From Campylobacterales bacterium (lineage in GTDB: Bacteria > Campylobacterota > Campylobacteria > Campylobacterales > Sulfurimonadaceae), in NCBI GenBank assembly GCA_016938735.1, contig JAFGUB010000016.1, positions 1 through 42,547 of the forward strand: DNA of 42,547 bases, read 5' to 3'. The notes beneath the pieces were generated by a model. That model saw nothing but the letters and a program-made list of their open reading frames with translations, was not told the DNA's origin and did no database searches. Below are positions 18,432 through 37,593 of the stretch, piece after piece (position 1 is the first letter of the stretch; each line of letters begins with the position of its first letter). Both the position numbers and the translations under genes were made by a program.

Positions 18432-20747
18432 TTAATCCCCATTGACCGCAATGCGGTTGCGCCCCTGCGCTTTGGCCTGATACAGCAGGCTATCGGCCTC
18501 TTTGTAGATCTGCTCCATACTCTCTATCTCGCGTGCGCTGCGCACCACCAGACCAAACGATGCGCTAAGGCACGCAGCTACGTCGCTGCTCTTGTGCTCG
18601 ATTCGCAGCGCTTCGATTAGGGTGCGGATCTGCTCGATCTGGGCGCTCGCCTCTTTTTTTGACGCCCCTTTAAAGAGCAGCGCAAACTCTTCGCCGCCCA
18701 TACGGTAGCAGTAGTCGTCGCCGCGCTGCATGGCGCTTTGAAGCACCTGTGCGACACGACGGATGGCGTCGTCTCCGGAGGCGTGACCGTAGGTGTCGTT
18801 GTACTGCTTGAAGCGGTCGATATCCATGAGCGCAAAGCAGAGCGTTTGACGTTCGCGTGCGGCGCTGCCGAGCATTCGGGGAAAGTGTTCGCTGAGGTGG
18901 CGGCGGTTGTACAGACCCGTGAGTGCATCGGTAAGGCTGAGCTCTTCTAAAATACGCTCCGCCTTTTTACGCTGCATGATTTCGACCTTGAGCCGTCGGT
19001 TGATCCAGAGTACAAAGCCCAGAATCAGCGCCAGCGCCCCCACGGCCGCAGTGCCTAAGAGAATGATCCGCTCATAGTTGTCGCGGCGTTCGAAGGCGGT
19101 GTTGAACCAGCGCGCCTGAATCTCTTGTTGGGTTGCTTCGGGGATGCTTTTGAGCGCTTTGTCAAAGATGGAGCGCAGCAGCGGTTCGTCGTTGCGGGTG
19201 CCGATGCTGAAGTTCCAGGTTTCATCGAACTTGCCCGCGACGGTGAGTTGCCCCAGGTAGTCGTGCTGAATCGTGTAGGCGAGGGTGGGGAGGGTGTCGA
19301 TCATGCCGTATAGCTTCCCTTTGACCACCTGTTCCAGCCCCTCTTCGAGATGACTCACGGTGACGAGCTTGAGTGAGGGGTAGCGCTCGCGCAGGATCTC
19401 CGCAAAGGCGTACCCTTCGACGATGCCCAGCGTCTGATCCGCGATGCGGTCGATATTGTCGATGTAGATCTTGTCAAGCCGTGTGGCGATGGCGACGCTG
19501 GCGCGCAGGTAGGTGGAGGTGAAGTTGAGAAAGCTACGCCGCTCTTTGGTGGGCATCACCAGCGAGAAGAGGTCGCAGCCGCGAGCCCTGCCCAGTGCGA
19601 GCGATTCGCCCCAGCTTTGGGTGCAGACGGGCGTGATGGGGGTCTCTATGGCTTCACTGAGCCGCTTGAAATACTCCGCGCTGAGCCCCTCATGCACGCA
19701 ATCTTTGCTGCGCTCAAAAGGCATCCAATCGGGATCGATGCAGAGTTTGAGGGTTCCTTTGCTTTTGAGGTAGTCGCGCTCCTGCGGGGTGAGAAAGTCC
19801 GTCGGAGCGTTTTTGGACGTGATGGGCTCAAAGATATAGTCGCCAAGCGCGACGGGATTGTCAAGCAGGCCGTATTTATGGTAGAGATCGAGTGTGTAGC
19901 GGATGCGTCCGCGATCGATGGTGCCTAGAGGGATGCTCTTATGCGCCGAGAGCTGTTCGATCGCGTCGGCTTCATAGAGCAGATGTTCAAGGGTTTTGTC
20001 GGGGCGGTATTTTTGTTGGATAAGCTGCGCTACCTCCTCTTTGTGCTGTAGCGCGTAGACCCAGCCGCGCAGGCTCGCCCGCTTGAAGCGCTCGACGCGC
20101 TCAGGATGGTGAGTCGCCTCGTCGCGGTGGGTAAAGAGCATATCGCCGTAGAGATCAAAACCGTAGTGGGCGGGGTAGAGGATGTTGATGTCGATCCCAG
20201 CGGCCTGAAAGTAGTAGGGCTCGTTGGAGAGGTAGCCGACGTAAGCGTCGCTCTTGCCCTCGATGAGGTGGGTGTGGTTGGTGCGGTCTTTGATGCGCTG
20301 GTATTCGGGTTTGAGCCCCAGCGACTTGAAGAGTGCCAGAATGCCGAAACCGTCGGCATCTTTTTTATAGAAGGTGATCTGCTTGCCGTCAAGTTTGTAG
20401 GGGCTGTCCAAACCGCTGTTTTTCAGGGTGATGAGGATATTGCCGGCATGTTGAAAGATGGGTGCGACGATGGAGACGGGCTCGTTTTTAGCGCTGTAAA
20501 GCAGCAAAACCGAATCGGCGATACCGTAGTGCGCTTCGCCCTCGATCACCTGAGCGATGTTGTCTTTGCTCAGGTCGCGCTCTCGTATCTCCACCTCCAG
20601 ACCCTCGTCGCGGTAAAAGCCCTGTTCCAGAGCGGCGTAGTACCCCGCAAACTGAAACTGGTGCAGCCATTTGAGCTGCAATACGACCTTCTCCTCGGCG
20701 CAGAGCAGCAGACCAAAGCAGTAGAGACCAAAAAGGAGTCGGATCAA
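18432..20747 (-). CDS. Diguanylate cyclase with NMT1-like and SBP3-like periplasmic sensor domains
   Basis: 771 residues, TTG start at 20747 before signal peptide MIRLLFGLYCFGLLLC. Domain order: an NMT1/THI5-like binding domain (VLQLKWLHQFQFAGYYAALE) to about residue 310; a family-3 solute-binding domain from LKLCIDPDWMPFERSKD to about 575; one membrane helix (IILLGTAAVGALALILGFVL); then GGDEF. The active-site loop is GGEEF at residues 684-688 and an inhibitory RxxD (R675-D678) stands exactly five residues before it, so product inhibition is expected. It would make cyclic-di-GMP in response to periplasmic ligands. The NMT1 domain suggests a pyrimidine- or thiamine-precursor-like or sulfonate-like ligand, and the second an amino acid-like one, but neither ligand is known. 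Confidence 0.88.
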   Translation of the reverse strand: MIRLLFGLYCFGLLLCAEEKVVLQLKWLHQFQFAGYYAALEQGFYRDEGLEVEIRERDLSKDNIAQVIEGEAHYGIADSVLLLYSAKNEPVSIVAPIFQHAGNILITLKNSGLDSPYKLDGKQITFYKKDADGFGILALFKSLGLKPEYQRIKDRTNHTHLIEGKSDAYVGYLSNEPYYFQAAGIDINILYPAHYGFDLYGDMLFTHRDEATHHPERVERFKRASLRGWVYALQHKEEVAQLIQQKYRPDKTLEHLLYEADAIEQLSAHKSIPLGTIDRGRIRYTLDLYHKYGLLDNPVALGDYIFEPITSKNAPTDFLTPQERDYLKSKGTLKLCIDPDWMPFERSKDCVHEGLSAEYFKRLSEAIETPITPVCTQSWGESLALGRARGCDLFSLVMPTKERRSFLNFTSTYLRASVAIATRLDKIYIDNIDRIADQTLGIVEGYAFAEILRERYPSLKLVTVSHLEEGLEQVVKGKLYGMIDTLPTLAYTIQHDYLGQLTVAGKFDETWNFSIGTRNDEPLLRSIFDKALKSIPEATQQEIQARWFNTAFERRDNYERIILLGTAAVGALALILGFVLWINRRLKVEIMQRKKAERILEELSLTDALTGLYNRRHLSEHFPRMLGSAARERQTLCFALMDIDRFKQYNDTYGHASGDDAIRRVAQVLQSAMQRGDDYCYRMGGEEFALLFKGASKKEASAQIEQIRTLIEALRIEHKSSDVAACLSASFGLVVRSAREIESMEQIYKEADSLLYQAKAQGRNRIAVNGD

Positions 20748-33409: not shown

Positions 33410-33994
33410 TTAGTAGCGCGTACCCGCCGGCGCGTTGATAAGGTTGAAAAACTCCATGCGGGTTTTTTCGTCACGCTTAAACAGACCGCGCAGGGCGCTG
33501 GAGGTGGTGGTGGAGTTGATCTTCTCAACCCCGCGCATCTCCATGCACATGTGTCTGGCCTGCAAAACCACCGCTACCCCTTTGGGTTCGATGGTCTGCA
33601 TGATGGCGTCGGCGATCTGCTCTGTGAGCTGCTCTTGAATCTGCATGCGTCTGGCAAAGACATCGACCACGCGGGGAATCTTGGAGAGACCGACTACTTT
33701 GCCATCGGGTATATAAGCGACATGCGCCCGCCCGATAATCGGCAGCAAGTGGTGCTCGCACGTGGAGTAAAACTCGATGTCCTTGATCAGGACCATCTCG
33801 TCGTTGCTGGTGTGAAAAAGTGCGGACTCTAAAATCTCTTGCGGGTTTTGGGCGTAGCCGCCGAAGATGAACTGATAGGCTTTGTAGACCCGTTCGGGTG
33901 TTTTGAGCAGCCCTTCACGTGTCGGATCTTCGCCCACGCTTTGCATCATGGTGACAACGGCTTGTTCAAAAGCTTCTTGTTCGGCTGTTTTCAC
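33410..33994 (-). CDS. folE: GTP cyclohydrolase I FolE
   Basis: 194 residues. [20 protein letters not shown] holds the zinc-binding Cys and His residues; [40 protein letters not shown] and ALRGLF complete the family signatures. It converts GTP to dihydroneopterin triphosphate, the first step of folate synthesis. The TGCTAGTATGATT string upstream (34027-34039, minus) may carry its -10. Confidence 0.94.
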
Positions 33995-34160: not shown

Positions 34161-35459
34161 ATGCAAATTAAGACAAACAAGATCGACGGCGCCAACGCGG
34201 AAATTTCAGTAACCGTACCCAAAACTACGATCGTATCGAATGTGGAAAAGATCGCATCAGAGCTGACCAAAAGTGCCAAAATTCCAGGCTTTCGCAAAGG
34301 CAAAGTGCCTGCAAGTGCCGTGAAAAAACAGTACGGTGAGCGTCTGGTGCAAGATGCCGAGGCGGAAGTGCTGCGCGAAGTGCTGAATGAAGGACTTAAG
34401 GCGATGGGCATAGACAATGCCGCCATTATCGGTGAGCCGCAGATCAGCAAATTTGAGCGGGGTGACGACAAGATTGAAGTCGAGGTCAAGGTGGCGATGC
34501 GTCCTGAAATTAACATGGAAGGTTATGCCGAACTCGTTGCCGAGTTTGATAAGCCTGCCATCAGCGACGAGGCGGTCGATACCCGCATCAAAGAGCTGGC
34601 ACAGGCGCAAGCCCCAATGGTCAGCGTCGAAGAGGACCGCGCACTGGTTTCAGGTGATACCGCAAAGATCGATTTTGAAGGGTTTGTAGACGGTGAGGCA
34701 TTTGAAGGCGGTAAAGCTGAGGGCTTCTCTTTACGTTTGGGCAGCGGACAGTTCATTCCGGGCTTTGAAGATCAGGTCATCGGTATGAAAAAGGGCGAAG
34801 AGAAGATGATCGACGTTACCTTTCCCGAGAATTACAACAGCGAGAAGTTGGCCGGTAAACCTGCACAATTTAAAGTGAAGGTTCATGACATTTTGGCTAA
34901 GGGTGAAGTGGCGCTCGACGATGCGCTGGCCAAAAAGATGCTTCCCGGACAAGAGGGTGCCGACATGGCGATGCTGCGCGAGAAGGTCAAAGAGCAGCTT
35001 GAGAGTGAAGCGCTCAGTAAGCTCTACAACGAAGAGCTTAAACCCAACCTACTCAACACTTTTGTGGACAAGTTTGATTTTGCTCTGCCGAGCTTCGTCG
35101 TAGAACAGGAGATTGACATGGCGCTGAATAAACACGCCCAAAGCCTTGCTGCCAATGAGATCGAAGCACTGAAAACGGATGCCGAAAAACTCAAAGCACT
35201 GCGCGAGAGCTTCCGTGACGATGCGGCCCGCAGCGTTAAGGCGACCTTCATCATCGATGCCCTTGCGCAGGCTGAAGGGGTGCGCGTAGCGGAGCAGGAA
35301 GTGATGCAGACCATCTACTTCGAAGCCCTGCAGATGGGTCAAGACCCTGAAGCGGCCTATAAGATGTATCAGCGCTCAGGCTACCTGCCTGCCATTCAGA
35401 TGGCGATGGTTGAGGATAAAGTCCTTAGCAAACTGCTCAACAACAAAATCAGAGCTTAA
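34161..35459 (+). CDS. tig: Trigger factor, ribosome-associated chaperone and prolyl isomerase
   Basis: 432 residues. The ribosome-binding signature IPGFRKGKVPASAVKKQYG lies near residues 41-60. The FKBP-type PPIase domain spans about 150-240 (GDTAKIDFEGFVDGEAFEGG; IPGFEDQVIGMKKGEEKMID). The C-terminal chaperone arms are helical. It binds nascent chains at the ribosome exit. AAAAGGG before the ATG is its ribosome site. First gene of tig-clpP-GGDEF-def. Confidence 0.95.
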   Translation: MQIKTNKIDGANAEISVTVPKTTIVSNVEKIASELTKSAKIPGFRKGKVPASAVKKQYGERLVQDAEAEVLREVLNEGLKAMGIDNAAIIGEPQISKFERGDDKIEVEVKVAMRPEINMEGYAELVAEFDKPAISDEAVDTRIKELAQAQAPMVSVEEDRALVSGDTAKIDFEGFVDGEAFEGGKAEGFSLRLGSGQFIPGFEDQVIGMKKGEEKMIDVTFPENYNSEKLAGKPAQFKVKVHDILAKGEVALDDALAKKMLPGQEGADMAMLREKVKEQLESEALSKLYNEELKPNLLNTFVDKFDFALPSFVVEQEIDMALNKHAQSLAANEIEALKTDAEKLKALRESFRDDAARSVKATFIIDALAQAEGVRVAEQEVMQTIYFEALQMGQDPEAAYKMYQRSGYLPAIQMAMVEDKVLSKLLNNKIRA

Positions 35460-35462
35460 GCA

Positions 35463-36056
35463 ATGAGCTACATTCCCTACGTCATCGAGAAAACGGGGCG
35501 GGGCGAGCGTTCGTACGACATCTACTCGCGTCTGCTTAAAGACCGCATCATTATGCTCAGCGGCGAGGTGAATGACCCCGTCGCATCGACGATTATTGCG
35601 CAGATGCTCTTTTTGGAAGCGGAAGATCCCGAAAAAGATATCTATTTTTACATCAACTCTCCCGGCGGTATCGTCACCTCCGGTATGGCGATGTATGATA
35701 CTATGAATTACATCCGCCCTGATGTGGTGACCATCTGTATCGGACAAGCGGCTTCGATGGGGGCGTTTTTGCTCAGTTCGGGTGCCAAGGGTAAGCGTTA
35801 TGCGTTGCCCCATGCCCGCATCATGATCCATCAGCCTCTAGGCGGTGCACAAGGTCAGGCAACCGATATCGAAATTCAAGCCAAAGAGATTTTGCGTATG
35901 AAGCGGGAGCTGAATGAAATTTTGGCCAAAAACACCGGTCAAAATGTCAAGAAAGTCGAAAAAGACACCGACCGTGACAACTTTATGAGCGCACAAGAAG
36001 CAGTGGAATATGGTCTGATCGATGAAGTGCTGCTCAAAAAAGTGAGTAAGAAGTAA
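35463..36056 (+). CDS. clpP: ATP-dependent Clp protease proteolytic subunit ClpP
   Basis: 197 residues. The nucleophile Ser is in [16 protein letters not shown], the His in [20 protein letters not shown] and the Asp in the [18 protein letters not shown] region. [20 protein letters not shown] is a typical ClpP start. It degrades proteins with Clp ATPases. It follows tig by 3 bp. Confidence 0.95.
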
Positions 36057-36059
36057 GCC

Positions 36060-37076
36060 GTGGGAGTGGATAAGCGAGAGGGCGTCGGTAGCGGCATCAC
36101 GATCAATGCGCTAGGAGAACCCACCAGCGATCTTGAGGTTTATGCCAAAGAGGTTTTGAGTACTCTGATTTCAGACAATCTTCCCCCCACCCCAAGCAAT
36201 TTCTCGCTCTATTTTGACCGTTTGATGGAGGAGAAAAGCGAGAGCTTTCGTAAGCAGGTTAACGCCATCTTGGAGATCGAAGATGGCAATGATGATGAGC
36301 AGAGCATGGAGCTGGAAAAAAGCCTCAAAGAGGGTTTTGTCTCCGTCAAAAATATTCTTCAAGTCAGTGCCAGCCTTTATAAAAATATGGCGCTGATGAC
36401 CAAGATTCTTGAAAAACACAAGGTAGAACTACAGACAAGCACAGAATCGCATACCGTGATGCGGATTGTCAAGAGTCTTGATGATGATGTCGGCAAGCTC
36501 AACACGATTCTAAAAAAACAGACCTCACAAATGAAGACGCTTTATGATGAGACGGCAGGGATTATCAAAAGCGTTGAAAATGAGACCATTTTTGACAATC
36601 AATATGGCCTCTATAACCGACGTTATGCGATGAATAAAATCGATCAAGAGCGCCAGCTTGTTATAGAATTCAAGCATAAAAGCTCACTTATCGCTCTTAA
36701 GCTATCTAAAGAGATCGAAGGGCAGATCAGTAGTGAAAAGGTGCTGCATCTGATGACGCGCACGATTGCACGTTTGTTGCTTAAAACCTCGCGACGCAGT
36801 GATATTATCGCCCATTATGGCAGCGGAATTTTTTTGATGCTCTTAAAGCATACCGATGCACCGAGTGCGAAGAATGCGGCTCAACGACTTTATGATTTGG
36901 TGGCCTCTAGCAACTTCTTTTTGGCAGAAAAAGAGTACAACCTCAAAATTGCCATCGGTGTGGCAGAGATTAATAACGCTAAGAGTGCCGAAGAGTTGAT
37001 TATTGCAACCATTGATGCGATGGGGCGTGCCGATGAGGCGCCTGAATCGATTCATTACGTTGTGTACGAGGGCTAA
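36060..37076 (+). CDS. Degenerate GGDEF-domain protein between clpP and def
   Basis: 338 residues, GTG start (36060 or 36066) 3 bp after clpP. Residues 1-165 are helical, with a likely coiled coil. The C-terminal half follows the GGDEF fold ([60 protein letters not shown]), but the active-site loop reads YGSGIF in place of GGDEF, so the acidic catalytic residues are gone. It should not make cyclic-di-GMP. It may bind a nucleotide or act through protein contacts. Its place 1 bp before def ties it to the expression of chaperone, protease and deformylase. Confidence 0.8.
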
Positions 37077-37077
37077 G

Positions 37078-37593
37078 ATGCGCTTACCGATTGTCACCTA
37101 CCCCGATAAGCGTCTTAAAGCTCTTTCAGGCGAAGTGACGGTTTTTGATGCTCTTTTACACGAACTTTTAGACAATATGTATGAAACGATGATTGCATCG
37201 AATGGCATTGGTTTGGCCGCAATTCAGGTTGCTCAGCCCATAAGGGCGCTGATCATCAATCTCCCAGACGAAGAGGGCGTGCAGCATTCGGAAGCAACCT
37301 TGGAAGTGATTAATCCAAGGATCGAAGTCGTCGAGGGCTCCACCTATTATCAAGAGGGATGTTTGTCAGTTCCGGGTTTTTATGAGGATGTAGAACGGCA
37401 TGAGCGTTTGCGTCTTAGGTATCAAGATCGCTTTGGTAATGAGCTCTTATTGGAGGCGGAGGGGCTGCTTAGCATCGCGCTTCAGCATGAAATGGATCAT
37501 CTCGATGGGAAGCTTTTTATTGAGAAGCTCTCTTATGCGAGACGGAAAAAGTTCGAAAAAGAGTACAAGAAAAACCAAAAAAGCAAAAGCTAG
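37078..37593 (+). CDS. def: Peptide deformylase
   Basis: 171 residues from the ATG at 37078 ([20 protein letters not shown]). The three metalloenzyme motifs are all present: [17 protein letters not shown] (Cys ligand) and QHEMDHLDG (two His ligands and the catalytic Glu). It removes the formyl group from new proteins. The end overlaps the convergent gene at 37590 by 4 bp. Confidence 0.95.

Follow-up and report, generated by a model that had tools for sequence, protein, structure and literature searches.

The window analysed here, a stretch of 42,547 nucleotides from a Campylobacterales contig (JAFGUB010000016.1), carries a compact run of four genes on its forward strand. It begins with tig (34161–35459, +), whose product, trigger factor, matches the Pfam families Trigger_N, FKBP_C and Trigger_C, and continues with clpP (35463–36056, +; ClpP protease subunit, CLP_protease E 5.7e-89), a gene for a degenerate GGDEF protein of 338 residues with a GTG start (36060–37076, +), and def (37078–37593, +; peptide deformylase, Pep_deformylase E 1.2e-45), which starts at the ATG at 37078. 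Coordinates and sequence agree with the spacing described in the initial annotation, the GGDEF gene following clpP after a gap of 3 nt and preceding def by 1 nt. The divergent upstream neighbour of tig (33410–33994, −), a presumed folE-like gene, is found in front of tig in several distant families as well. A promoter and terminator scan of the locus gave signals at the level of shuffled sequence. The sole Pfam match of the 338-residue protein is GGDEF (PF00990, residues 178–325, E = 1e-11), and its score of 45.3 bits against a curated cut-off of 23.8 places it within the family; Sulfuricurvum sp. has a copy that is 90% identical. There are 82 PF00990 matches in the genome from which the window comes, which is thus rich in c-di-GMP enzymes. 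A second GGDEF domain in the window lies at 18453–18935 (−), inside a 792-codon frame (E 2.4e-45).

We first consider the active site. The GGDEF-fold domain (residues 176–338; 36585–37073, +) has its catalytic residues replaced, with YGSGIF at residues 253–258 (36816–36833, +) in the place of xxGG[DE]EF and no metal-binding DxDxFK motif. The same holds for its relatives: a GG[DE]EF-like loop occurs in 0 of 153 orthologs, which span 41 genera and ten family groups, and columns 212–217 are not of the DxDxFK type across these 153 rows. The commonest ortholog loops are GNGVF, GEGIF, GEGVF and GDGVF, together with GNNIF, and an acidic residue stands at one loop position in seven rows, at the next in four, and at both in none. 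The proposal of the initial annotation that the protein is catalytically dead is therefore borne out by the loop and by the missing DxDxFK, and orthologs with an intact GGDEF, which it held would speak against this, were looked for among the 153 and none was found. An active site that is dead by sequence would leave no c-di-GMP synthesis, and we reject an active diguanylate cyclase on the motifs, the loop and DxDxFK both being missing.

The AF2 model, obtained from a 52-row alignment (mean pLDDT 85.6, pTM 0.65), places helices over residues 24–175 and a GGDEF fold over residues 176–338. Residues 173–337 of this model superpose on the c-di-GMP-bound structure 3ign with Z 24.6 and an rmsd of 2.2 over 163 aligned residues, which is the best structural match, and Foldseek gave only GGDEF-domain entries among the best 50 matches listed. 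Secondary structure prediction and conservation delimit the N-terminal part as a helical, coiled-coil module (residues 24–175; 36129–36584, +). It has no Pfam match, only weak PHROG matches (E 0.023 or worse) and no credible match among PDB sequences, and its single-sequence model (pLDDT 77.9) brings up nothing beyond generic coiled coils (Foldseek E 0.23 and VIA Z 10.2 at best).

A strong ortholog is present in 78 of 101 genomes sampled from the window's family and in about 181 of 298 genomes sampled across the phylum, both hand counts from search tables with cut-offs near 1e-50 (family) and 1e-14 (phylum), weaker matches being other GGDEF proteins. By tblastn, the order clpP-gene-def is found at 99 of 102 loci, which include eight genome repeats (L009, L061, L062, L067, L072, L076, L077 and L079) and thus represent 91 of 91 distinct genomes, all of them with tig-clpP-gene-def. 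The gene is likewise flanked by clpP and def at 43 of 43 later, more divergent loci from cyclase-free genomes, so that its position in other Campylobacterota, which the initial annotation had suggested examining, is kept in all orthologs checked (91 genomes and these 43). Ten family groups of the phylum have it in place, including many members of genus g26, which is probably a Campylobacter-like genus; several other groups have tig-clpP-def without it, clpP lying next to def. Among 24 genomes chosen mainly for weak or no matches and searched with ClpP, 23 yielded a ClpP locus, with a divergent gene in place at 5 and clpP-def without the gene at 17; at one locus (L128 in G136) tig-clpP has no def within the stretch examined, the run being broken or def having moved. 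Groups f4, f7 and f8 have cyclases, and the clpP-adjacent GGDEF gene is absent from their genomes that were checked. The presence of the gene in ten family groups indicates that the arrangement is old in the phylum and has been lost several times. The wording of the initial annotation, an insertion into the operon, reads as a late event and does not fit: a late insertion is ruled out by the ten family groups with the gene in place and other groups without it, and the adjacency of tig, clpP and def that the annotation gives for C. jejuni is better read, from these comparisons, as a probable lineage loss.

The remaining three loci (L044–L046), in three genomes of genus g14, are non-syntenic paralogs located elsewhere, full-length and 32–35% identical, that carry RRSD alongside a degenerate loop; at the two with neighbours listed (L044 and L045) the next gene is presumably greA-like. 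One ortholog (about 1766–2700 of L043, from G018, a genome with other cyclases) contains an internal stop or frame break, which may reflect either faulty assembly or a recently formed pseudogene. G007 and G010, in which no GGDEF gene lies beside the main clpP, carry a second, divergent ClpP that is about 50% identical (L129; G010:C1:1586222–1586803).

Directly before the YGSGIF loop, the window protein reads KTSRRSD. The allosteric I-site, which the initial annotation did not mention, neighbours the loop, and its primary motif RxxD is represented by R245-R-S-D248 (36792–36803, +), as supported by alignment and conservation. In a first alignment of 89 rows, from which eight repeats, L043 (internal stop) and L023 (start unclear) had been dropped, RxxD was missing in a few orthologs. 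The final set of 153 rows has L023 restored and L043 left out; the profile used to read it (A1) derives from 52 of its sequences and can favour common residues. Of the 103 orthologs in this set that come from cyclase-bearing genomes, 101 keep RxxD, so that a dead A-site is combined with a conserved RxxD, and of the 50 from cyclase-free genomes none does; the two cyclase-bearing exceptions have KxxD (G072 and G011). The first 90 rows, from which the idea came, give 81/83 and 0/7, respectively, and the 63 rows fetched after it give 20/20 and 0/43, although these later rows are not phylogenetically fresh, being mostly from genera already seen. The nucleotide binding that the initial annotation considered possible thus gains backing from sequence in a more specific form, a c-di-GMP I-site that is kept with cyclases and lost without them.

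This contrast depends on how the two classes were assigned. A genome was counted as cyclase-bearing if it held at least one other intact diguanylate cyclase motif, which is true for the genomes of all 103 orthologs, and intact cyclases were counted by a motif scan of 298 genomes and by PF00990 searches of 40 + 37 genomes. The first motif scan gave zero for five g27 genomes and for G262, yet RxxD is kept there, which put the idea at risk. RWGGEEF-type cyclases, invisible to that scan, were found by reading G303, G110 and G262, and others were found inside PF00990 matches in G114, G121 and G313 by a wider scan (56 genomes and the 101 family genomes), whose pattern spans only some of the codons for the preceding residue. 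Cyclase-free status was assigned by genus and then checked in each of the 50 genomes, all of which were searched with PF00990. The orthologs concerned come from six genera, g19 (17), g46 (7), g29 (4), g42 (4), g58 (2) and g26 (16), where for g26 the term means that no intact motif is present and c-di-GMP may remain, since low c-di-GMP has been reported with CbrR (PMC8779298). Genomes of g29, g42, g46 and g58 have either no PF00990 match at threshold or a single one, which is the ortholog itself. Every further GGDEF-like protein read in g19 and g26 is degenerate; second proteins of this kind were read in g19 (G119, G105 and L214–L219) and g26 (G208, G133 and G122), and also in G141 and G163, where no ortholog of the clpP-adjacent gene was found. 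G119 has a GGEEF within a PF00990 match, but without DxDxFK, and in G172, G265 and G212 the GG[DE]EF pattern has stray occurrences that fall outside every PF00990 match. At L138, L139 and L214–L219, g19 has a second GGDEF-like protein of ~400 residues with loops such as GEEEF, GDEEF, SEEEF or GGEEF, in which DxDxFK and RxxD are both lost. EAL domains are absent from 48 of the 50 cyclase-free genomes, the exceptions being 1197-codon frames in G250 and G340.

The loss is concentrated in particular columns. Columns conserved at ≥90% in the cyclase-bearing set were ranked by how far conservation drops in the cyclase-free set, and the six largest drops (columns 245, 244, 273, 243, 246 and 276) all lie in the I-site loop or in the helix that holds R276. 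This residue (36885–36887, +) aligns with the arginine that forms the secondary I-site in diguanylate cyclases, as found in the c-di-GMP-bound cyclase domain 3ign and in 4urs, and is presumably the equivalent of PleD R390; it is present in 102 of 103 cyclase-bearing against 11 of 50 cyclase-free orthologs. In the g19 rows, R276 survives in 11 of 17 and R246 in 10 of 17. The N-terminal residues P45, F52 and E86, on the other hand, are found in 103/103 cyclase-bearing orthologs each and in 49/50, 50/50 and 50/50 cyclase-free ones. Falls of 0.5–0.6 are also seen at K263, K97 and K90, residues without a known part in the I-site, and agreement with the consensus is lower overall in the cyclase-free than in the cyclase-bearing set: the mean match is 0.297 against 0.556 for the N-terminal part and 0.326 against 0.587 for the GGDEF part.

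On the tree built without columns 240–280 (INDEPENDENCE), we count no fewer than 4 changes of cyclase state and 6 of RxxD, the latter read as four changes plus the two KxxD cases. Three independent cyclase losses are supported, with four on the best tree, and the three supported contrasts agree in direction in nearly every random pairing (sign test p 0.25). With only 3–4 independent losses, the sign test cannot reach 0.05 and no significance can be claimed; support for the link between I-site and cyclases is thus concordance and column specificity, not a p-value. Between close pairs, dN/dS is about 0.03–0.06 in the cyclase-free g26 and g46 and similar in the cyclase-bearing g27, g14 and g53. 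It is higher in g19 (median 0.381), where the pairs listed have dS close to saturation, and a value of 0.24 in the cyclase-bearing g2 makes the comparison a rough one. The low values in g26 and g46 suggest that, at least there, the gene is useful without c-di-GMP.

From sequence, we consider it probable that the protein encoded between clpP and def is a receptor for c-di-GMP, its active site dead and its predicted I-site live, because the predicted c-di-GMP site was lost along with the cyclases and the remainder of the gene was retained. Such a receptor would derive from a diguanylate cyclase that has lost its active site and with it the synthesis of c-di-GMP. The ligand would bind the allosteric I-site at R245xxD248, with R276 as secondary arginine, given that their conservation tracks the presence of cyclases. 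Binding may alter how the protein dimerises or how its N-terminal coiled coil (residues 24–175) is oriented, and this module would carry the output. That output appears to be selected even without c-di-GMP, as lineages without the I-site still have the gene in its place and with its N-terminal signature, and co-translation between clpP and def may provide steady expression alongside the protein-maturation and turnover machinery. Since the gene persists in 50 cyclase-free genomes, c-di-GMP binding is unlikely to be its sole function. The locus thus amounts to a natural experiment in which the same gene, at the same position, has or lacks the c-di-GMP pocket depending on the genome's capacity to make c-di-GMP, and may show what remains of a receptor once its messenger is gone. 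To our knowledge, c-di-GMP effectors are poorly known in Campylobacterota, and here the second messenger would be tied, at least by genome position, to housekeeping proteostasis.

What the receptor acts on is where the readings diverge. The output could be unrelated to the neighbours (motility, the cell pole or metabolism), the operon giving only constant expression, and we regard this as a serious candidate, if one that falls just short of an even chance. It accords with the tig-clpP-def runs kept in groups that have no GGDEF gene, with the non-syntenic RRSD paralogs beside a presumed greA-like gene, and with VidB of C. jejuni, a degenerate GGDEF relative reported to act in flagellar motility (PMC10790790); the position is, however, unusually stable for a gene of unrelated function. 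That very stability, clpP-gene-def in every ortholog checked, is what speaks for an adaptor that, under c-di-GMP control, would deliver substrates to ClpXP or ClpAP, with its operon mates as working partners. The model here is PopA of Caulobacter, which also has a dead active site, an RxxD I-site and a link to a Clp protease, a link that in our case is one of gene order. The likeness covers the GGDEF fold: PopA has receiver domains N-terminal to GGDEF, none of which was found in the clpP-def protein, where Pfam matched GGDEF only and the N-terminus is a helical coiled coil encoded within a tig-clpP-def run. PopA is described as a PleD paralog and response regulator, a degenerate GGDEF protein with RxxD that serves as c-di-GMP effector in directing CtrA to ClpXP-mediated degradation (PMC12564702). 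Gene order, though very stable, shows no physical partnership, and clpP and def stay adjacent where the GGDEF gene has been lost, so that an adaptor of this kind seems rather unlikely. The part in proteolysis or nascent-chain handling that the initial annotation thought possible is likewise suggested by gene order, with PopA and ClpXP as a functional parallel. We are equally doubtful of a working connection with ClpP, trigger factor or deformylase, attractive as it is, and of its broadest version, an ancient, phylum-wide, c-di-GMP-gated regulator of maturation or turnover, acting with one of these three, that would have become a constitutive adaptor where cyclase-free lineages lost the I-site.

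Other readings dispense with the ligand. A structural or scaffold protein that has not bound c-di-GMP in recent times, its I-site lost by drift in fast-evolving lineages, would fit the higher overall divergence of the cyclase-free set, the few independent loss events and the retention of the gene without c-di-GMP. Drift leaves unexplained why R245 stands at 101/103 where cyclases are present, and equally conserved N-terminal residues show no decay, and we therefore hold this reading to be improbable. A functional cyclase with an unusual loop is far less credible still: some degenerate loops, such as AGDEF, are active (PMC3974145), but in this family the acidic residues of the loop and DxDxFK are both gone.

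The c-di-GMP receptor that we favour has several counterparts among described proteins. VidB of C. jejuni shares a cyclase-derived C-terminal domain from which catalysis and a well conserved I-site have been lost, and differs in length (465 residues), in locus and in its flagellar velocity phenotype (PMC10790790); the same report finds no cyclase activity for CbrR or VidB. Campylobacter subgroup II is reported to have four inactive DGCs, with A-site and I-site degenerate in cyclase-free Campylobacter (Mo et al. 2022, PMC9239204), and the clpP-def gene is probably one of these four. The text of that paper mentions neither clpP nor trigger factor nor def, and its passages on these DGCs do not follow them into cyclase-bearing relatives, where we find the I-site intact. 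Our literature search, thin on subscription journals, found no description of a GGDEF gene between clpP and def, and the position of the gene across the phylum, the I-site kept intact by relatives with cyclases and the repeated, parallel loss of that site appear to be new here. CbrR of Campylobacter is likewise a degenerate GGDEF protein of the Campylobacterota, for which c-di-GMP binding at the I-site has been reported (PMC8779298), but it has 414 residues, two receiver domains and another locus. The g26 genomes encode a separate protein of about 420 residues that is of the CbrR kind and that we infer to be CbrR.
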